The notes under the pieces: model-generated
The model's input: the letters and a program-made list of their open reading frames with translations, nothing else
What the model was told of the DNA's origin: nothing
Database searches by the model: none
Shown here: positions 7,709 to 53,900 of the stretch, one piece after another
Layout of the letters: every line of letters begins with the position of its first letter
Numbering within the stretch: the first letter of the stretch is position 1
Source of the DNA: Thunnus maccoyii
Taxonomy: Eukaryota > Chordata > Actinopteri > Scombriformes > Scombridae
NCBI RefSeq assembly: GCF_910596095.1
Contig: NC_056548.1
Location: 4,489,151-4,553,150, forward strand
Length of the DNA: 64,000 nucleotides
Direction: 5' to 3'
Made by a program: the position numbers and the translations under genes

Positions 7709-7782
<74 letters not shown>
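7709..7782. repeat. (GT)37 microsatellite
   Basis: An uninterrupted run of 37 GT units in the eif5 leader intron. It creates a spurious open frame of repeated Val-Cys, which is not a gene. Confidence 0.97.
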
Positions 7783-7784
<2 letters not shown>

Positions 7785-8331: not shown

Positions 8332-8823
8332 CAGGTGTGACAGTAGTTTGATTGGCTGTAAAGCTAAATTCGTTACACAACTGTCACCAGAAAAGTCGCG
8401 ACAATTCTCCAACCTTCCATTATGTTCGGTAAGTTAGCTTCGACGTTAACGAGAAGAAACGGCTGTTACACGTGTTTCCTCGCCAAATACCCCCTTAAAT
8501 AAAGACATAATCGACTTTACAGTTGATAAAAAACAACAAAGTTATCCACAAGCTGACAAAAGTTAAATATATAAGTAATGTAAACACAGCATCCTATGTT
8601 AAAGCTCATAAACGTTAAGCTCCAGGAAATAGTCATAGCCCATATTGCTAACGCGAAGCCAACAGGCAGCTAACGACGCGATCGGACGAAGATAATGTGA
8701 TTAAGTTGTATATTTAACGCTACCTAGCTAGTTTTATATTATCTGTGAAGCTACGGCCGTCGATGTGTAATCCACGTCAGGATGAAGCCGAGGAAAATGT
8801 GTTGAAATTATTTCGCAGCTTAC

Positions 8824-8960
8824 CTCTCGAATGTTCTGCGAAATAAACGGCTCCTCACGTCGCTTTTACTCACGAGTGTGAAGCTAGCGCGTAAACGAAG
8901 CGTGCGACTTCCGGCGGTAGCATTGATTTCAAATTAAACGTCCTCCACCTGCGTTGATTT
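8824..8960 (-). promoter_or_regulatory. eif5: eif5 non-coding first exon and core promoter with ETS-type site
   Basis: On the minus strand a leader sequence ends GAGAG followed by a strong donor GTAAG at 8823. Just upstream in gene sense is CCGGAAGT (plus-strand 8907-8914), the ETS/GABP core typical of housekeeping promoters, inside a locally CpG-rich, TATA-less stretch (8640-8930). The transcription start is inferred near 8880-8915. Promoter identity rests on position and motif only. Confidence 0.6.
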
Positions 8961-8995
8961 TTTTATGTGGTTCCTGTTTCCACAAGACTTTTTAC

Positions 8996-9610
8996 TTAAA
9001 GGACGAGTTCACAGTTTTTCAAATTTGTCTTAAAACAACAGTCAGGTGTCCATATTAACACTGAAAAAGGTTTTTCTTGCTGTAATCATCCCCCCTGTTC
9101 ATATTGGCCATTAAAATCCCCTTGAAATGTGCTTTCAATGTAAGTGATGGGGGACAAAATCTACAGTGTGTCTACCCAGTCATTTTATGCAAAAATGCAT
9201 TTAAAAGTTGATCTGAAAGCTTATAGGAGGCTTCAGCAGTCTGAGCTAGTCATATCAAGTGGATATCACATTTACAGTCTTTTCCTCAGACAGTGTTTCC
9301 CTGTTGAGCTGCAGATAAACTTTTAGATAATTTTTTGCACAGAAGGACTGTGGATTTTGGCACAGGAGGACTGTGGATTTTGGCTCCCATCACTTATATT
9401 GTAAATGCATAATGTGCATTATGTGATAATACTGATACAGATTAATGGGAAAAGAAAGAAGAAAAAACAAAGTTCTGATAAACAAATCTGTTTTCAGTTT
9501 TTTGACTTTTTCTCTAGTCTTTGATTTTTGGTGAAATATTCCATCATTTTAACATTTATTGAAATGAAACCACGTGAGAAGTTTAGAGGGAAAATCACTA
9601 TTTGGTGGAG
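8996..9610. mobile_element. Truncated MITE A joined to a piece of repeat family B
   Basis: Begins TTAAAGGACGAGTTCACA, the family A terminus, and carries its CTTGCTGTAATCATC and GATATCACATTTACAGTC blocks. From about 9430 it changes to the GGGAAAAGAAAGAAG...CAAATCTGTTTTCAG block seen in family B copies (10790-10980, 16270-16400). It lies in the roughly 1-kb gap between the divergent eif5 and vps29 promoters. Confidence 0.75.
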
Positions 9611-9810
9611 CTGTTAACAATGTATGTAGCCTTCTTGTGAAGCCATTCGCAGTCGTAAAATACTGTCAAACATGTAATCTATCAGATTACAGTTGTTAAT
9701 TAGATTTTTTTTTCTTAATTGCTTTAGATGTATCAATTTAATCTGTTTTATGTTGAAAGGATAACAGGAACTATTGTATCGAGCTTGACGTATGCTCTAA
9801 TATTCTCCTT

Positions 9811-9888
9811 TCTGATTGGCTGAGAGCTTGACGCCGTACGTGCGTAGGCGCTTCCTCAACTTGACTCGCAGAAACAGCAAAATAGAAG
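9811..9888 (+). promoter_or_regulatory. vps29: vps29 proximal promoter and short 5' UTR
   Basis: An inverted CCAAT box (ATTGG at 9815-9819) lies about 70 bases upstream of the vps29 start codon, followed by a CpG-containing stretch. There is no TATA box. The leader before the ATG at 9889 must be short. Inference from position and motif. Confidence 0.5.
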
Positions 9889-12800
9889 ATGGTGAGTATG
9901 AAATGGCGAAATAGCTGCAATTTCCCGACATTTACAGGTCGAGTTTCGATCAAGATGTTTTCTTAGACTTGTTGTCGACTTAAGGAAACCGATAATTTGG
10001 TTTCAGCTCGTCCACAAAGTCTCAGTTTTAAGGGTTTTTTTTTAGTGAAGCTTCATTCCGAGATGGATCAACGATCACATGACAGCTGAGCAGTTTAGTC
10101 CCCAAAAATTCAATGCAACAAGCTGCAAGCAGCCCTAAAGTCACTCTTTTCATTTGCACGGTGGCCTTTCATTTATCCATCAGCTATTCTTTGTGTCTGT
10201 TTGATTGAAAGCACGACAATTTGTTCACTTTTTCACCAGTTAGCTCGCTGCGCTAACAGGCTAACAGCTACCTTCCTGACAAGAGGCTCTCTTCCTGTGC
10301 AGGAGTAACGTTATTCATGTTTATCACGCAGTTGTTGAGCTGATCTGTAACTGTAAACGATTTCTGAATTTAATCAACTAGTTAGGACTACAACTACACG
10401 TTATACATTCATGCATTCACTCATTCATTCATCCTCTCACTGTCTTTCTAGCTCCTACTCATAAGCTGTTCAGTAGTCTGAAGCAATATATTTGTAAAGA
10501 CAACAAGTTAAAGTGCATTTTAAGTCCATTTACTCAAGTTCAATACTTAAGTACAATTTGAGGTACTGAGTATTTCCATTTGCTGCTACTTTATTCTTCC
10601 ATTCCACTACATTTCAGAGGGAAATATTGTACTTTCTACTCCACTACATTTATTTGACAGCTTTAGTCACTTTTCATATGAAGATTAGACGCAATGGATA
10701 ATATAACAAGCTTTTAAGATACAACACATTGTTAAAGATGAAACCAGTGGTTTCCAACCTTTTTGGCTTTTAATGTTTTACAAAAAGCAGTGCGTAGTCG
10801 GGGTCATATTTCACCAAATAGTGATTTTTCTCTCTAAACTTCTCACATGCTTTCATTTCAATAAATGTTCAAATGATCCAATATTTCACCAAGAATCAAA
10901 GATCTGAAAACAGATTTGTGTATGAGAACTTTCTTTTTCTTCTTTCCTCTCCCATTAATCATCTCACAACTCCTCAGATTTATCTGCTGACTCTTTGGAG
11001 GGGCCCCGACCCCCTAGGTTGGGAACCACTGGGCTAAACTAGCTAACTGTATATAAAGTAGTTGAAACTAGCTCCACCTCCAGCAGCTACAACAGTAACA
11101 TGCTGCTCTAACACTGATGCTTCACTATTAATAATCTAATGATGTCATATATAATCACTCTAGTAAAGGATCTAAATACTTTTTCCACCGCTGTGCTTCA
11201 TCACATTGTTTTGTTCGCACTCAGTCAGACAAATATTACATATTTCTTTTATTGTAATCACTAACCATCATCAGCCATTAACAAGTGATTCAACCACATT
11301 GTCGTTCAACTTTTCTTATTTGTTTTGGAATGATTAATATCTGTCAACTTAATCCATTCACTTTTTAATTTCTAATTTCAGTTTTCCCCTCTTGTCCCAA
11401 CTGTTTCTTCTTGTCTCTTCTTTTTATATTTTTCCTCCCCAATCTTTGATCATGCCTTGTGTCATTCTCTCCACGCACATCCTGCCTTACTTCCTATCTC
11501 ACCCGCTCCTCTCATCCTACCACCCCTACTTGCCTGTCTCCAATCCACCAGGCTGGTCACCGGGTAAGTGCCCTCGCTCTGTGTTGGGTCCCTGTTTTCT
11601 GCTCGCTCTTCTGCCTGGTACACTAACACAGGATTGGGATTGAACAGCCCTGGAGGTCTGCTGTTTCTGTGTCTCACAGCACAACTAGCTGCTGCTAATT
11701 CAGCTACTGCAGTGAAGCGACCTGCACCTTGCAGCCTATGATGCTTCAGTTACACGTGCGCTCAGCTGTTGCCCTAAACAAAAACTACTCATCTACCCAA
11801 AACAAGCCTAAGGAGGAAATTTGACGCTCCAATATCAATTTTCTAGAGTTTGTTTAGATATCTCTGACTTGAAGGGTTAAGGTTTAATGACAAGATTCTA
11901 TTTTGGGGGGGGATCCTTACTAGTGACACCTTTGAGAAGACAATCAGGACCAAGTTCACCAGGAAAAAAGGACAAAACCTTTGATGCAGTAACTTTAAAT
12001 TTAGTAGAGCTGCAACTAACGATTACTTTCATTATCGATTCATCTGTCGATTATTTTCTCGGATTAATCGATTAGTCGTTTGATCTAATAAATGTCAGAA
12101 AATGGTGAAAAATGTCAATCATTGTTTCACAAAGTCCAAGATGCAACCTAAAATGTCTTCTTTTATCCCGACAAATAGTCCACAACCCAAAGATATTTAG
12201 TTTACTGTCATGCCAGACTTAAAAAAAACTGAAAATATTCACATTTAAGAGGATGGATCAAGAGAATTTTGGCGTTTTTTTCTTTAAAAAATGACTAAAT
12301 AGTGGGCAGTTAATCGATTAATCATTGCAGCTCTTAAATTTAGTCACTCAAACAAATCTTTCAGCAATGTCTTGATAATGTATATCTGTATGAAGCAAGA
12401 CAATGTTGTTCTTATAAGAGCACACATTAATCCATCAATCATAGTTCCTGGTGTATCTCTAAATTCACTGTTAGTTGTTCGCTATTTGCACCATTTTATC
12501 AGCCACACAGATATATGGCATCGGATAGGAGGATCTTGAAATGTTGGTGTCTGCTAGCCAGTGGAGTGATATAATTCATGGGTTTCATGTTTAGTATGAA
12601 CCATCAGGTTTGTTGGTGTTTGTTTCTTATTGACTTATTGTGTTTGTGTGCAAACATAATTATCTCTCTCTAATGTCCGACATCTGTTCTTGAGTGTCTG
12701 ATATTCAGCTGTGCTCCCATCAAATATGATCATTATTTTGCCACCATGGGCTGTTCTCACATATTTATTCAGTGTCATTTATAACCCAGTTTGAATTCAG

Positions 12801-13188
12801 ACACTCAATATACACAGCTTTGTACTCACTAAATTTCAACATTGCTTATTTACAAGTCTGAGCTTTAAGAAGCCCTTGATGAGCCTGTTATTACATTTAT
12901 CCACTGTACTGACTTAATCTGGATTAGGCTGTTGTTTGGGTGCCATAACACAAAGTATTTTGATTGTTTTTTAAAAAAACAATTCAAACAATTTAAAAAA
13001 TAACTAACTGAGGAGTACAGTGGTTCTGGTGGTACTGGCATCATTCTCTGCTGCAGAAAGGACCTGTGGCGTCCCACAAGGCTCTATCCTCGGCCCACTT
13101 CCTTTTTCAAGGTTCAGATGTTCCAACATACAGTCTGAACTCTCTCAGGGCTCATTGGTGGGTGTCTAACGTGTGTGTGTGTGTGTGT

Positions 13189-13259
<71 letters not shown>

Positions 13260-15424
13260 TGTCTGTATCTGTATGATGCTCTCAGTTGGTCCTGGTGTTA
13301 GGTGATCTGCACATCCCCCACCGGTGCAACACCCTACCAGCCAAGTTCAAGAAGCTGTTGGTCCCGGGGAAGATCCAGCACATTCTCTGCACAGGCAACC
13401 TCTGCACCAAGGAGAGCTATGACTACCTGAAAACCCTCGCTGGAGACGTCCACATAGTCCGAGGAGACTTCGACGAGGTCTGTGTGTGTTTGGAGAAGAC
13501 AGTAAAAGAGTCTAAAGTCCAGCTAACATTCACTACACCCCACAGTACAACAAGAAACTCTGCTTCCTCTATCAGTGCAAAGGGTTAATAGGACTTCTAT
13601 TGCTTAGATGCATAACCATTAAAGGCAAATGAGGCTCACAACAGCAAAAACAATGTATCGTATGAAGCAGCTTATTTTCCAGACTAGCCTATGAAATTGT
13701 AGAAGACATGACAAAGGTCAGAAAAGCAGAATGTTATTTGACAGAATTTCTGATCTGGGGTTCTGAAATAAGGCTGCAGACAGGCAAAAAAGCCATAACT
13801 AATGTAGCTGAATATTTAATTGCATTGAGGGAGAAAATGGATCTCTTGCTAGTGCTAAACGCTAATTGCAAGGTAATTAAGTGGTAATTGCTCCCTCCTC
13901 ACTGATTTCATGGTTGCTGTGTCTGGTTCAAGCTCACATTACAGTTTTCAGTGGTGCAAGAAAAAAAGTGTAATATTACAAAAATAGCACTGTCAAATGA
14001 AAATACCAGTACATAAACATCATTGTGCCTCATTGTTGCCCTCTTGTCCCCCCCCTCTCAGAACCTGAACTACCCGGAGCAGAAGGTGGTGACAGTGGGC
14101 CAGTTTAAGATCGGTCTCATCCACGGCCACCAGGTCATCCCCTGGGGCGACATGGCCAGCCTGGCGCTGCTCCAGAGGCAGCTGGACGTCGACATCCTTA
14201 TCTCCGGGCACACGCATAAGTTTGAGGCGTTTGAAAACGAGAACAAGTTCTACATCAACCCTGGTTCAGCCACGGGGGCCTACAGTGCACTGGAAAGGTA
14301 AAAATTACATTTACACTGGTGAAGCCCTGAATTGGGTCAAATCAAGTGGTCTTTTTAGTAAAAATTTCCCTCTTTGTGGCTCAATGGACAGTGTTTTCCT
14401 GTTCAGCCACAGTGGAAGGATCATAACAAAACGAGGGACTTTGGCACTTAAAAGACTGTAACGTTGAAAGATATCTACTTGATTTGACTCATTTGGATGT
14501 TGAAGCTTCATATTAGCTTCAGATAAACTTTTAAATACATTTTTGCACAGAAGGAGGACTGTGGATTTTGTCCCCGTCACTTACATTGTAAGTGCATTAT
14601 GAAGGGATCTTCTAATGGTCAGTATGAACAGGAGGAATGAAAAATTAAAAAAAACATGTGTCAATGTTCATTTGGGCTCCTGACTGTTGTTTTAAGACAA
14701 ACTTGAAAAATTGTGAACCCGTCCTTTAATGTTGCCCACAGCATTAAAAAATAAAAAAAATAAACAGTGTGTGTCCACATTAGGGCTGCAACTAATGATT
14801 ATTTTTATCATCAATTAATCTGTTGATTATTTTCTACGTTAATATATTAGTTGTTTGGTATATAAAATGTCAGAAAATGGGGAAAAATGTCAATAACTGT
14901 TCCCCAAAGCCCAAGATGACGTCCTCAAATGTCTTGTTTTGTCCCGATCAACAGTCCACAACCCAAAAATATTCAGTTTATTATTACAGAAGACTAAAGA
15001 AAACAGAAAATATTAATTGTTGACAACTAATCAATTAATCAACTAATGGTTTCAGCTATAGTCCACATTACACTGGTTAATCTACAGAACTGGAGCTGGA
15101 AGTGGAACTACTTTCTATCAAAGAAATAGATTTTATGGAAATATTGCTGTTGAATTTCTGTACACTGAGACGTTGACAGTAGCTGATGCTCTGCTCCAGT
15201 GTGACATACAACACAACCGCCGTGACACTGGAACCAGACTGACTGTAATTTCAAGCAGCGCTGGAAAAGTCTTGACCTAAAACGCATCTGTCCTCTCTCC
15301 TTACAGCAACATCATCCCCTCTTTTGTATTAATGGACATCCAGGCGTCTACAGTGGTGACGTACGTTTATCAGCTGATCGGCGACGACGTGAAGGTGGAG
15401 AGAATCGAGTACAAGAAATCTTAA
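9889..15424 (+). CDS. vps29: VPS29, retromer/Commander scaffold subunit
   Basis: VPS29 is the metallophosphoesterase-fold subunit of retromer (with VPS26 and VPS35) and of the related retriever complex; it acts on endosomes in cargo recycling. Coding exons: 9889-9891 (only the ATG), 11552-11563 (a 12-base microexon, Ala-Gly-His-Arg), 13286-13477, 14062-14297, 15307-15424. They join to 186 codons plus TAA with GT-AG borders throughout, the length of the longer human isoform. Fold motifs are present: GDLH (11-14), GDFD (65-68), GHQ (91-93) and SGHTH (117-121). The family is thought to lack strong phosphatase activity and to serve as a scaffold. Skipping the microexon keeps the frame and gives [10 protein letters not shown]. 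The exon 3 donor (GTCTGT) is weak. A long (GT)n tract precedes exon 3. The 3' end faces fam216a. Confidence 0.98.
10495..11200. mobile_element. Repeat family B (hAT-type MITE) copy in vps29 intron 1
   Basis: Runs from the TACTCAAGTTCAATACTTAAG block through 'TACTTTCTACTCCACTACAT', a central 'GGGAACCACTGGGCTAAACT' piece, to CTAAATACTTTTTCCACCGCTG. The outer TTTCCACCGCTG is the inverse of the CAGTGGTGGA end seen at 50627. The family recurs at 15908-16530, 40480-40985 and 50625-50870. No transposase frame is present. Confidence 0.75.
11552..11563 (+). other. vps29: 12-nt in-frame microexon of vps29
   Basis: GCTGGTCACCGG flanked by AATCCACCAG on the left and GTAAGTG on the right: a strong donor and a fair acceptor. 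It encodes Ala-Gly-His-Arg between the initiator Met and Leu-Val-Leu-Val-Leu. Human VPS29 isoforms differ by exactly these four residues (established knowledge), so this microexon is conserved from fish to mammals. Confidence 0.92.
12003..12336. mobile_element. Repeat family C (TIR MITE) copy, vps29 intron 2
   Basis: Left end TAGAGCTGCAACTAACGATT and right end AATCATTGCAGCTCTT are inverted complements. The internal AATCGATTAGTCGTTTG and GTCAGAAAATGGTGAAAAAT blocks are shared with the copies at 14783-15062 and 16866-17150. No open frame; non-autonomous DNA transposon. Confidence 0.85.
13171..13260 (+). repeat. vps29: (GT)n tract immediately upstream of vps29 exon 3
   Basis: About 43 GT units with one GTAT and one GTTT interruption, ending about 25 bases before the acceptor CTCTCAG at 13279-13285. 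In the transcript this is a UG repeat occupying the place of the branch point and polypyrimidine region. Confidence 0.97.
14303..14730. mobile_element. MITE family A copy, vps29 intron 4
   Basis: The right end AACCCGTCCTTTAA and internal blocks GAAAGATATCTACTTGATTT and CACTTACATTGTAAGTGCAT match the complete copy. The left terminus is missing: the element seems to begin right after the exon 4 donor at 14298. Confidence 0.8.
14783..15062. mobile_element. Repeat family C copy, vps29 intron 4
   Basis: Left end AGGGCTGCAACTAATGATT, right end AACTAATGGTTTCAGCTATA (degraded inverse). The GTCAGAAAATGGGGAAAAAT core is shared with the other two family C copies. It lies 50 bases beyond the family A element. 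Confidence 0.8.
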
Positions 15425-15802
15425 AGGGAGTTTGTGAGGAGGAGAGGCGGGGGTCAGTTTGGCTCAATGTAATGTTTCATTCCTTTCCACCAGGGGGCAG
15501 CAGCTCACCCCCCACAGTCACCACAATATTAATGCTGTAACGAACTGTTAAGTAACTTAACTCTAAAAGACCTATGTATTATATTGTTTATATGTCATCA
15601 GCATTTGCTTGTATCCAGGCTGTCATGTGGTAACCGTAGAGAATGCAATAATGTCACATGTATTTGTTATCAAAAGAAATATTTGGTGCCATTTTCTTTT
15701 CCTGTTTCTTTTTTAATTTTCCCCCTCGTCATGTCCTGTACGCGTAACAAACAGGCCTTTAGCTTCCTGTAGTTGGCCTTCTTTCTTTAATTTCTTTCTC
15801 AC

Positions 15803-15808
15803 AATAAA
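15803..15808 (+). terminator. vps29: vps29 polyadenylation signal AATAAA
   Basis: A canonical AATAAA 380 bases after the vps29 stop, followed within 30 bases by a T-rich stretch. The stretch 15425-15830 is therefore taken as the 3' UTR. Confidence 0.75.
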
Positions 15809-15907
15809 GATCTAATTTCACTCCATCAGTTATTCTGTCTTCACTTGTAATACCAGTGCTCATTTGATGGTGCAAACCACTGATGTAGCACAATGTATTC
15901 ATGTAAT

Positions 15908-16530
15908 CAACGGTGGAGGAAGAACTCAAATCCTTTATTTAAGTAAAAGCAGCCATAATGTAAAAGTACTCTATTGCAAGTAAAAATCCTGAATTTGAAA
16001 TCCTTCTAAAGTAAAAGTACAGAAGTATTATCTTCTCAATTTACTTAAAGTATTAGAAGTAAAAGTCCTGCTGCTGTGACTTTATTACATTAGATTATTA
16101 ATAGTGAAGCATCAGTGTTAGAGCAGCATGTTACTGTTGTAGCTGCTGGAGGTGGAGCTAGTTTCAACTACTTTATATACAATTAGCTAGTTTAGTCCAA
16201 TGGTTCCCAACCTAGGGGTCGGGCCCCTCCAAAGGGTCAGCAGAGAAATCTGAGGGGTTGTGAGATGATTAATGGGAGAGGAAAGAAGAAAAAACAAAGT
16301 TCTGATACACAAATCTGTTTATAGCTTTTGAATTTTTTCCCTAATCTTTGATTTTTGGTGAAATATTGGATCATTTGAACATTTATTGAAATGAAACCGA
16401 GGAATGAAAGGAGACACAACTTAATGATTTTATATAAGACTCCAAGACAAAAAAAAGTTGGAAACAGCTGGTTTAATCTTTTAAAATGAAAAGTAAAGAA
16501 GAAAATAAAGCTGTCAAGTAAATGCAGTGC
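15908..16530. mobile_element. Repeat family B copy between vps29 and fam216a
   Basis: Starts GTGGAGGAAGAACTCAAATCC, carries TAAGTAAAAGCAGCCATAATG, the GCAGCATGTTACTGTTGTAG block, GGTTCCCAACCTAGGGGTC and the AAAGAAGAAAAAACAAAGTTC block. It is in the opposite orientation to the copy at 10495-11200. Confidence 0.75.
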
Positions 16531-33100: not shown

Positions 33101-36100
33101 ACTGAGCCAGGCTAGCTGTTTCCTCCTGTTTCCAGTCTTTGTGCTAAGCTAAGCTAATCGGCTACTTGACTTATATTTGACGGACAGATATGAGAGTCAA
33201 TCTTGTCATCTAACTCTTTACCTGTACAGCAATATGATGCAATCAAATAAATCAAAAGTTTAAGCATCATTTTTGAGATTTTTTTTCCAAATTCCTTTAG
33301 CTTCTGAGTGAGAACCGTGAGTGAGAACCACGACTGAGTCATGTCACACAATATCCCAAACTTTTGCCAAAGGCTTACTGAGGCCAAAGGTCACCTAGAC
33401 AACGTAACCTTGAGAGAAACCTTTCCCGAACTGTCTTTGCATCTTAATTTCAGCACAGTGCACACTTGAAAAGCAGGTCATTGACATTTTTTCATGGCTG
33501 GTATCTCCCTAATATGTCCCAACAGCACAAGAGGGAAATTAACCTGGGATCATGCCAACATTCACTATTCTCTTAAAGACCCTGCTGCACATCAGCTGTG
33601 GGGATTTTCCAAATTCTTCTGGGATACATCTGTCTTTAGAAGTCAGCCAATGACTCAACATCAAGCAATGATTAATAATGATTTGCACAGTCTAATGTGT
33701 CCCGGACAAGGTCAAGACTTAGAAAAGTTGACTGGGCTGATAGTCAAGTGGGTACTAGTTAATTAGCCCAAGCATAAGAAAAACATGTTGTAGTTACTCC
33801 TCTTATGACTATACCCTGGTACTTAGGTTAACGTTACAATTTCAGTAGGCAGTTACGTGAATTAGGTTGTTAAATGAGTGTGCATGTAAACATTCTCAGA
33901 CATGCCTCTCTTTTGTATTCTGAATTACTCTTCCACTGTTCCTAGATAGAATATGAGATACAGCAGTGAAACAGGCTGCGGCTCGCTTCTGACATTGGTA
34001 TTTGTGGTACTTTCCCAGTCAGGACCTGCTGGGCGCTGCTTCCCCACAAGAAGTGGATCACATCAAAGATGTCGACCTCATGCTGTTCACAGAGTTGGCA
34101 GCAAAAGCAAAGGACAAACTGCTTGAAATTGTGCAGGTAAGAAACCAGCAATGTTCTAATCTTATAGATATTTAAAGACTTTAAAGTCCCTGAAAACCTG
34201 TTTTGAGATTTAACATGATCACACCATTTTCCGTATTTGTTCTTTTTTTTTTTTGTCTTTGAAATGGGCGGGGCTCAGTTGAAAAAAAGGGGATGTCACA
34301 TATTTCCACACACCAATTAGCAGATTTGGAAATATGTGAATCAAAATCTGGTGACAGTTGGTGGGTGGTTTCCTTATGTTGCCTGGCTGCTGTCAATCAA
34401 ATCTGATGAAAACCCAAAACCCAAACAGTGCTGAAGAAGCAAATTATCAGAATTTATTTACACTTAATAAATATCTAAGCATGTTTCTTTCTGAACTTTA
34501 ACATATTTAGTCATGACTATTTATTGTTATAAAAATTTAAGATTTGAAACCACGTTTTTAGAGGCCTTAAGGGGCGTCATACCTCACAAAACAAATGACC
34601 GACATTAATAACTGTAATAATTTTTCTACTTTTCTTAAAATCAATCTGTATTAAACTTCTTGTGCTCTAAATGTGTCTGTTTATAAATTGTAAAATTCAA
34701 ACCCCTAATCAACTTCTTCAACTATTAATCATGTGTATAAGTGTAATGGGAGTAGGTTAACTCCCAAAAGCACAACGCTTCATAGTATCGCCATGGTGAC
34801 AATGGACTGCATTTATATAGCGCCTTTCTAGTCTTCTGACCACTCAAAGCACTTTTTCACTACAAGCCACATTCACCTGTTAACACACAAACACTCATAC
34901 ACTGATGGCTACCAACCTGCTCATCAGGAGGATCTAATCATTTACACACAAATTCACAATTTTAGGTTCAGTATCTTGCCTCAGGACACTTTGACATGTG
35001 GCCCGCAGGAACCGGGAATTGAACTGCCATTCCTCAGATCAGTGTATGACCCGCTCTACTTCCTGAACCACAGCTGCCCACGCTTAGTTACAGGGATGGG
35101 TGTGAATCAACTTTTAAGCAGGAAGGAAATTTCTCTCAGTCCAGAAGACAGATAAAAGAAAGTAGTGGTGACATTAAAAAAAAAAGCCCCAAATCTCAGT
35201 ATGTGGCCAAGTTAATGCTGAGTCACTGCTAAGAGAGAAATTGTGGCCACCTACTCAGCCGCTTGTGGCCTGTGCAAAATGACATGAATGTGATATAACC
35301 GGTCCTGAATTCCCCAAGTGACGTTTTCTATCTGTCCATGCATGCAAAACATAAGCTGTGAATAAAACAGCTTGGTTTATTTTAAGCCACCTGTCTGGAA
35401 TGGACACACAAAGATAAACAGAGAAACATGATATCTGATTGTTGCTTTGATACAATTATTCCTACATCATGTACAAGTAGTTTGGAAAACTGTATATGCT
35501 TATTAGGACTTGCTGTGTCTCCTTTTGTTCACAGAAAGAGGTCAGCGCGTCTCTGGAGAAAATCCTGCAGAACGAGAGAAGCCAAGAAGGCTGCGATAGT
35601 GACGAAGCTTTCATTCAAATGAATGTGGACACAATCCAGGTATTCAGTAACATAAAGCTTATTTTAACTGTTACTTTAAGAGAACATGGAAAAGGAGTCT
35701 AGTTTATATCTATTGTGTGATTTAACTTTGATTATTGTTTTATCAGTTAAATGTATCTCTGTATGTTTGTTCAGTTATTTGTTGGCTTTTCTGTTCCTAA
35801 TTTATTTTAGTCTTATGTTTATCTGTCCTGTAATGATATTAGATCTGAATTAACAGACATCTGTTCTTCTATCTGTCTTTAAGTGCATCGATGCCATGTA
35901 CAAAGGTGCACAAACAATCAACAAAACAGTGTCCGACCGTGTGCAGGACGTTTGTTTCCAGGAACTGCTGGTGTTTGTGAGGAGGTGAGAGTCTGTTTCT
36001 ACATAAAAACATATGATGAAATGAACATAAATATCACATATTAAACTCAACATTTTGTCTTGTTTAGACTACGTCTGACAGCATTCTCTTTGATTTGTAG

Positions 36101-50900: not shown

Positions 50901-53900
50901 AGTGTCCTGCACCTTTCTGGCTAAAGCGACCAGCATCCTGAGAGACTCCACTCACCCCTGCAATAGACTGTTCTCCCTCTTGCCCTCAGGCAGGAGGTAC
51001 AGCAGCCTGTGTAGCAGCACTGTCAGGTTCAGTAACAGCTTCTACCCGGCTGCTATAAGACTGCTCAACAAAATAACACACTGCTGACTGTGCTCTTGTG
51101 TTTTTAGTCTTTTTCTCTCATACCTGTGCAATGTCCAGAAATTATTTATTATTCAGTTTTTAATGTGTTTTTAATGGTACCATGCTCGTAGTTTCGTTCT
51201 ACTTTGCATCACTGATGTTTTGCTGAATGACAATAAAAGGATCTTGAATCTTGAATCAAAGTAGTGGAGTGCAAATATAAAGCTGGAGAATGCTGGAAAA
51301 TGGAAAGTAGTTGTTGAGAAATCTTGGTCTGATACGTTGGACAGAGGATGGACTGATGGACCAACACATGGACAGACATTATCATGTTTGGGCACTGCCA
51401 CCGCCAGAATAAAAATACACCAATATAGAACAGAATGGATTCAGAAATATAAGATTCTTCACCAAATGTTGATTTTGAACCCTGTTATTGTTTTATAATA
51501 ATAAGATAAATTGAATTAATGACTCACTCTGGATAATACTCGTTCACCCAGAGCAGGAGGGAAGTGCAGTCCTTGTCATCTAGACCAAACTCTGTAATCT
51601 TTTTGAGTCTGGCACTGAAGGTTTGGTGGTACCACCTGGCATAGGAATTACAGATGTTCAGCTCCAGTGGGTAGCAGCTTTTCACCACCTCCACCATCCA
51701 TAGCAGGTCCTGCTTCAGCTGCCTGCCCATGCTGCGGATGTGGAGAGACTTCTCCACCTGGTCTGCAGGGCTGGAGGAGGTGTTGTCCATGCGCTCCTCC
51801 ACCAAGCTGCAGAGCGTTGAGTCGTGGAGCTTCTTCCAGCCGCTGGGCCTCCAGGCCGGCGGTGTCCCATCCCTCTGCTTCCACTGCTGGTCCTGCTCCT
51901 CCTCCTGGCAGACGGCATTCACAGCAGAGATTAGAGCCTCAGCGTTGACTTCTGTGCTGAGAGACTGTTTCAGAATCTGCACTACGAGGTCCTTCAGGGC
52001 TCTGCGGTCTGCATCAAGCCTGTCTACTTCTTCCTCCTGATGTTCAAGTGCCTCTGCTTCTGTTATCTCCCCAAACAGACGCTCCTCTCTCTCTATCAGC
52101 AGCTGGCTGGCCTCAAACAAATGGTTTGCCTCAAGGAGTTCTTCAAATGTGGGTATCACTGAGGGAGAAAAGCAAAGAGCAGACCTTGTTTTGAGCTGTT
52201 GGAGATGGTGTTTACAATAAAATGTGGCATCTAAACTTCCTGGAATCACTTTCTATTGGACCTCATACTCCATGTGCATGAGACAAAGACAGGCCTGCAT
52301 TCAGTCACAAAGCCTGATAACAAAGAATGGTGCCCAGTCAAACAAAGAGTCCAAAATGGACTCCATCTCCCAGCATGTTTTGCTCAGTTCGCACCTTGGT
52401 GTGAACTCTGTGGGACGCATTACAGTTTTGTCTCTGAGACACACCAACACCACCGGGAGTCCTGGCAACGCAGCCGTGATATCACTGCGGCTTTAAGAAG
52501 CAGCTGCACGAACACCGCCATTCCATTGTAAATGTGCAGGAGGAAGCGTTGCTTTCTCTGTGAGCGAGCTTGCTAAAGGACTTAACCCCATGCACATCCT
52601 TTTTTCGCCACCAACTGGAAGGTTCTCCCCTCGCTGGACAGAGCGTGAGGACGGTCCCGTCAGCATCCAAGCTGAGGAACAACTGAACAACTGGCCTGCC
52701 GAGTACCTGAAAAACTGTGTGCAGGTGTACTGAGGAGAACTGCTGCTGTTTTAAACGCAAAGCTAAGTTAATTGATAAATAAAAACTATTCATGGCATTA
52801 TTTTTGAAAGCATCCTCAGTTTACTTTTAGTGCCTACTTTTCATATACTTTTGCACATGCTTTTCAGTATGTGTAAATATATAGTGTTTGTGGCCTTGAA
52901 GACATGAATTCAACCATTAACTTCATCTCTGTTCCTAAAATATTTCTGTTTCTTCCTGTTTTCTGCAGTGCAGTCCTATTCAAACATTAACAGTTAATGG
53001 TTGGCTAACAACTGGCTAATGGCTGGATGTATCTGATGTTAGCTCCATTAACTGACCATTTTGGGGTTCCTTACCGCCAGGTGAGAGGTGTCCATCAGTT
53101 ACAGAGATGGTGTTTGGACCAGCTTGAGCTCTGTTGCCTCTAAATAACTTTTGGAACTCTATCCTCAACCACCTTCCTCTTGCAGGTCTGCCGCTTGGTT
53201 CCTCTCCTGTGGAGACAAAATACCACCAAATGTTGCTAATAAAAAAAGAAAGAAAAAGAAGAATAGCTAAGTGAAAAGCTTAAAAATAGAGCATGTGCAC
53301 CAGAGACTTCTGCCGGCCGAGCAGCTAACTTCTGGTTAGCTCTCTGTTAACACCTTATGTGTGCAGCTCAGCTAGACTTTCCAAATGTTATCAGACCAAA
53401 TGGATCAAATTTTGATTGTGAAATTAGTAATTCTGCGGGTGTTGCCCAAAACAATTTATCCACCATTTTACAGTTGCAACATTAGCATTAGGAGTAGGCT
53501 ATGGTGGAGCCCATGGCGCCCGCACGTCTCACATGTGTTTTGTAATTACTCTCACCGCTTTAAGCTAGTTTTTGTTTGAATTTTGTGTAATACACTTGCT
53601 TTCCTGTTTTTTAATGTTTTAGTTAGCTATTTTTAAAATTGTGAATACAGTTTTTGCATTTTTTAAGGACCAGTGTGTAGGATTTAGTGGCATCTAGCAG
53701 TGAGGTTGCAGATTGTAACCAACTGAATACCCCTCCCCCTCCCCTTCCAAGTGTGTAGCAGAACCTACAATGGCTGCGAAAAACGGGAAAGGCCCTCTCT
53801 AGATCCAGTGTTTGGTTTCTCTGTTCTGGGCAACTGTAGAAACATGGCGGTACAACAACATGGCGGGTTCTGTGGAAGAGGACCCGCTCCTTACGTAGAT

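Follow-up and report, generated by a model that had tools for sequence, protein, structure and literature searches.

How is an acceptor recognized when a long GT repeat occupies the place where its branch point and polypyrimidine tract should be? The question is raised by a VPS29 gene in the window (the whole 64,000-nt stretch of DNA that was analysed), located on contig C16 of a genome of 782 Mb in 54 contigs. A preliminary description of this DNA had pointed out a microexon and, near the next acceptor, a UG repeat; our analysis confirms this observation. We read the whole as a GT microsatellite that grew within the interval between the branch point and the AG of the exon 3 acceptor, with an upstream CTAAC motif being used as a distant branch point, and we give this reading a probability of about one in two. 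The microexon is known and the repeat is of a common kind; the way they are arranged probably turns exon 3 into a distant-branch-point exon.

A VPS29 gene with the AGHR microexon

The gene structure can be read directly on the + strand. The initiator ATG (9889..9891) is the final codon of exon 1, is followed by the donor GTGAGT, and stands in a frame consistent with the assembled protein. It is followed by a 12-nt microexon, GCTGGTCACCGG (11552..11563), which codes for AGHR and is supported by the sequence, the assembled protein and the structure match. Exon 3 (13286..13477) is 192 nt long and in frame at both ends, its donor GAG/GTCTGT being followed by GTGTGTTTG. Exon 4 (14062..14297) and the coding portion of exon 5 (15307..15424, with the stop codon TAA at 15422-15424) were placed with the assembled protein. 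Joining exon 1, the microexon and exons 3, 4 and 5 yields a protein of 186 aa that starts with MAGHRLVLVLGD. Its best match among solved structures is the VPS29 chain 8fud_A (E 8.8e-123), which its description gives as isoform 2; VPS29 structures align with it end to end, 20 distinct sequences passing the 0.001 threshold, and a family search also places the product in the Metallophos_2 family. No second VPS29 copy or paralogue was found when the genome was queried with 143 aa of the protein, both matches being exons of this same gene. Judged from its sequence, the locus is the VPS29 gene carrying the known AGHR microexon.

Donor sites were scored as the number of bases matching CAGGTAAGT. Those of exons 1, 3 and 4 reach 6/9 each and that of the microexon 8/9. 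The idea of a weak exon 3 donor, suggested by the lack of A at +3 and +4 in GAG/GTCTGT, was dropped because its 6/9 equals the score of exons 1 and 4. The exon 3 donor, GTCTGTGTGTGTTTG (13478-13492), is itself UG-rich, so that UG-rich RNA flanks exon 3 on both sides.

The microexon itself is known biology. The description of four codons with proper splice sites directly after the initiator Met is borne out by the flanks (...CCACCAG upstream, GTAAGT downstream) and by the assembled protein: as in VPS29B, a 12-nt in-frame exon encodes AGHR between ATG and LVLVLGD. Its human counterpart is exon 2, whose alternative use separates VPS29A from VPS29B, with an identical position in the gene and the same four residues (PMC12260524). 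The human exon 2 primer given in that paper starts with GCTGGGCACAGA, and 9/12 bases match the microexon described here. Human additionally has VPS29C, proposed there as an innovation of placental mammals, and the accessible part of the paper makes no mention of a UG tract for human VPS29 (PMC12260524). A search of a library of open-licence papers found none linking VPS29 with a UG or GT repeat.

The earlier suggestion that the choice of isoform could matter, the N-terminus lying near the surface used by retromer partners, also finds support. Indeed, AGHR packs onto TBC1D5, the four residues strengthening the binding (KD of ~67 µM for the long form versus >300 µM for the short form), while VARP binding is similar for both forms (PMC7539009). 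Inclusion of the microexon varies among human cell lines, and the paper reporting this cites work titled on microexon control by RBFOX2 and PTBP1 (PMC12559242). Control by RBFOX2 was set aside here for want of an obvious site: GCATG does not occur within 9892-13285, a span that takes in the microexon and both introns around it (1 and 2), and GCACG is found in this interval only at 10156 and 10211, both in intron 1.

A GT repeat inside the AG-free zone of exon 3

Tandem Repeats Finder places the GT (UG) repeat at 13171..13266 on the + strand (48 copies, 93%). Two pure GT runs, of 22 nt (13171-13192) and 63 nt (13194-13256), make up 43 units with one interruption, and the gap to exon 3 is 29 nt from the pure end of the tract and 19 nt from its ragged end; the figures given earlier, about 43 units and about 25 bases from exon 3, are thus sound. 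To set this in context, a background sample of 18 stretches of 10 kb (180 kb) was used. It contains 18 pure GT or AC runs of at least 20 nt, one of which reaches 60 nt. Across the 782 Mb of the genome, a 30-base GT pattern yields 193,882 forward and 193,465 reverse overlapping matches. The tract exceeds chance as a repeat, though GT runs are common in this genome. Such a long run would be unusual beside any single acceptor, but over all acceptors of the genome some would be expected by chance. Another GT run, 75 nt long and wholly pure, is present upstream of VPS29 at 7709-7783.

The acceptor AG of exon 3 (13284..13285, +) is preceded by an AG exclusion zone of 135 nt (13149..13283), as measured by counting AG gaps. 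A motif scan of this zone finds two yUnAy motifs ahead of the repeat, CTCAT (-131) and CTAAC (-116), and none in the last 29 nt after the pure repeat. CTAAC (13166..13170, +; A at 13169, 116 nt from the intron end) is the best candidate branch point of exon 3. It lies in the 22 nt between the preceding AG and the repeat, and the chance expectation for a stretch of this length is 1.5% for an exact CTAAC, 7.9% for CTRAY and 33.6% for any yUnAy. The suggestion that the tract stands in place of the branch point and polypyrimidine tract therefore holds in part: no yUnAy follows the repeat, but a CTAAC candidate remains just upstream of it.

AG-free zones at the four internal acceptors measure 168 nt (microexon), 135 nt (exon 3), 50 nt (exon 4) and 35 nt (exon 5). 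Among the 8110 AG-AG gaps of the window (both strands) only three reach 135 nt, two of which end at the acceptors of the microexon and exon 3; the third begins at 34570 on the + strand. In the 180-kb sample, 16 of 23,405 gaps reach 135 nt and 6 reach 168 nt. As the exon 3 gap is a consequence of the repeat already pointed out, it is the gap of the microexon that counts as the independent datum. A fairer yardstick, since acceptor regions are pyrimidine-rich anyway, is the human figure of 165 exons out of 67,334 with an AG-free zone of at least 150 nt (PMC1431707). Zones of at least 100 nt precede 838 of these 67,334 human exons; exons with such a zone are more often alternative, and their branch points are frequently close to the 5′ end of the zone. 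The authors estimate that one-fifth to one-half of the 838 reflect distant branch points (PMC1431707). Exon 3 resembles this class in having a zone of more than 100 nt with a consensus in its 5′ part and none in the usual place. It differs in that verified cases were mapped or mutated, whereas the exon 3 zone is mostly microsatellite and its branch point is predicted (PMC1431707). Having a zone of at least 100 nt and a consensus near its 5′ end only, exon 3 is, as far as sequence criteria go, probably a distant-branch-point exon. A zone of at least 100 nt is also found at the microexon (168 nt).

Several points weigh against use of CTAAC. The same authors caution that a repeat may produce a long AG-free stretch that has nothing to do with splicing, the true branch point lying at its usual position (PMC1431707), and this could apply to exon 3 because its zone is mostly repeat. 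A non-consensus A, for example that at 13268, could serve instead; at 17 nt from the intron end it is closer to the usual human spacing (mean 29.3 ± 11.9 nt; PMC9508853), which counts against CTAAC. The chance rate of the motifs, about 8% of 22-nt stretches for CTRAY and 34% for any yUnAy, points the same way.

A strong rival of the distant-branch-point reading, one that we consider quite possible, is neutrality: the GT repeat would owe its position beside the acceptor to chance, exon 3 would be spliced constitutively through a nearer non-consensus branch point or robust exon signals, and the length of the repeat would be without effect. GT runs are indeed frequent (about 194,000 matches per strand, 18 runs of at least 20 nt per 180 kb, and the 75-nt run in the window itself), and a failing acceptor in a gene so conserved would presumably be selected against. 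This neutral account has to contend with the last 29 nt being free of yUnAy and with CTAAC standing just upstream of the repeat, an argument that bears on the branch point and not on an effect of length.

We also considered, and rejected, a role for ordinary base-paired structure in the RNA that separates the branch point from the AG: the predicted fold of this region is no better than that of shuffled sequences (z 0.95), 162 of 200 shuffles being at least as stable.

Possible consequences of the UG tract for splicing

Under the distant-branch-point reading, the simplest history would be that the acceptor was once an ordinary one, its AG some 30-40 nt beyond CTAAC, and then acquired a GT repeat in between. 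U2 snRNP would most likely assemble on CTAAC (A at 13169), where step 1 would take place, and the spliceosome would then have about 116 nt to cross, free of AG and largely made of UG repeat, before meeting the first AG at 13284-13285. In this process the UG tract would act as an AG-free spacer and as a poor pyrimidine tract. If protein-bound or folded, it would at most make recognition of exon 3 slower or weaker, depending on its length. Slower joining of exon 3 could in turn leave more time for inclusion of the microexon, as a kinetic effect, and strong repression would lead to skipping of exon 3, which is in frame (192 nt) and would remove 64 residues.

Since both N-terminal isoforms use the exon 3 acceptor, the repeat cannot select the N-terminus directly or by acceptor competition. 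The proposal that the tract tunes inclusion of exon 3 or the choice of N-terminus accordingly loses its second part in the direct form, while for the first a precedent exists in the repression of CFTR exon 9 by TDP-43 through UG repeats (PMC12171016).

The arrangement is of interest because a dinucleotide repeat, which is mutable, here probably determines how far the branch point of a conserved coding exon lies from its acceptor, and because this exon adjoins a microexon known to alter a retromer interaction. Were repeat length to matter, naturally occurring alleles would provide a ready series for testing models of UG tracts and distant branch points; if it did not, vertebrate splicing would appear tolerant of such spacers.

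A mechanism like that of CFTR exon 9 would have TDP-43 (or CELF) coat the UG tract and hinder U2AF and SF1, so that inclusion of exon 3 depends on repeat length. We consider it unlikely. CELF proteins, also named in the earlier remark on UG-binding proteins, likewise bind UG repeats, and TDP-43 has two paralogues in zebrafish. The TDP-43 part of that remark, with CFTR exon 9 as the known case, is supported by the literature: TDP-43 occupies a 12-nt site on UG repeats with picomolar affinity (PMC12697283, a preprint), and it represses CFTR exon 9 via the UG tract upstream of its acceptor (PMC12171016). By simple arithmetic, the 63-nt pure run offers room for about five such sites. On the other hand, skipping of exon 3 would keep the frame but take 64 residues out of the metallophosphoesterase fold, to harmful effect, and strong repression is therefore unlikely to be tolerated. 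The (TG)m(T)n element of CFTR intron 8, ahead of exon 9, offers a comparison. Both loci have a UG repeat just upstream of an acceptor, but the CFTR repeats named are TG11 to TG13 against 43 units at VPS29, and the T run that follows TG in CFTR is absent here (PMC12171016). At VPS29 the repeat precedes the acceptor and the candidate branch point is predicted upstream of the repeat. A further difference from CFTR exon 9 is that the 64 residues contributed by VPS29 exon 3 belong to a conserved domain.

Alternatively, the tract could act as a folded spacer, in which left-handed pUG quadruplexes bring the branch point closer to the AG and binding of TDP-43 opens the fold, producing a two-state acceptor. 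A pUG fold needs at least 23 nt (PMC12962679), which the 63-nt pure run exceeds, and fold and TDP-43 binding are mutually exclusive (PMC12697283, a preprint). Flanking sequence is known to influence such folds (PMC12962679), and the one considered here is hypothetical. Structure prediction for the tract region gives ordinary base pairs only. We deem this alternative very improbable.

In a class of fish introns, dinucleotide repeats at opposite ends of the intron pair with each other and replace U2AF2 (Lin 2016, via PMC12962679 and PMC9198270). Applied to VPS29, this would mean that the GT repeat finds its pairing partner in an AC repeat close to the 5′ end of its own intron, bypassing U2AF2. 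A GT repeat does stand at the 3′ end of the intron, as in the fish (AC)m-(GT)n class (PMC12962679, PMC9198270). Contrary to that class, introns 1 and 2 lack any AC run of four units or more, and within 8600-16500 CA runs of at least three units are limited to CACACA at 12421 and 12504. With no long AC partner in the sequence of introns 1 and 2, this pairing was rejected and retains scarcely any probability.

The microexon acceptor and neighbouring sequences

The zone upstream of the microexon acceptor (11382..11549, +; 168 nt by AG-gap count) is 80% pyrimidine. It holds candidate yUnAy motifs at -125, -102, -62, -50 and -37, and a CTAAT lies at -176 from the microexon, just above the AG at 11380-11381. 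A distant branch point for the microexon is not indicated, given several candidates at the usual distance (-62, -50 and -37). Pyrimidine tetramers of PTB type, a set of our own choice, number 20 in this zone; of 7092 overlapping windows in the sample, 45 contain at least as many. We infer that the choice of the microexon would depend mainly on the long, pyrimidine-rich region ahead of its own acceptor, the 168-nt zone being a more direct candidate for this role than the GT tract.

A far bolder scheme would join the two zones. Two successive distant-branch-point acceptors, that of the microexon (pyrimidine-rich) and that of exon 3 (UG repeat), would run the N-terminal switch of VPS29, with the number of UG units setting the distance from branch point to AG and the tract toggling between two states, folded compactly as a pUG quadruplex or extended under a coat of TDP-43. 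If true, repeat length would be a heritable dial on the speed of exon 3 joining, and hence on the share of AGHR-VPS29 that binds TBC1D5. We hold this two-acceptor switch to be most improbable.

Other features of the window were recorded. Intron 2 may hold retroelement debris, as suggested by the translation of 13065-13121, 50-106 nt before the GT tract, a reading that we take to resemble a LINE reverse-transcriptase motif. Among ten open reading frames of the window searched against Pfam, the only match was to Sec6 (exocyst), in an open frame at 51527-52252 on the - strand (E 1.7e-20). Repeats are also common to the introns of the gene and its flanks: 12064-12227 with 14839-15003, and 8996-9078 with 14647-14729. 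Among these shared repeats there are direct ones, with 84% and 79% identity, and inverted ones, with 86% complementarity.
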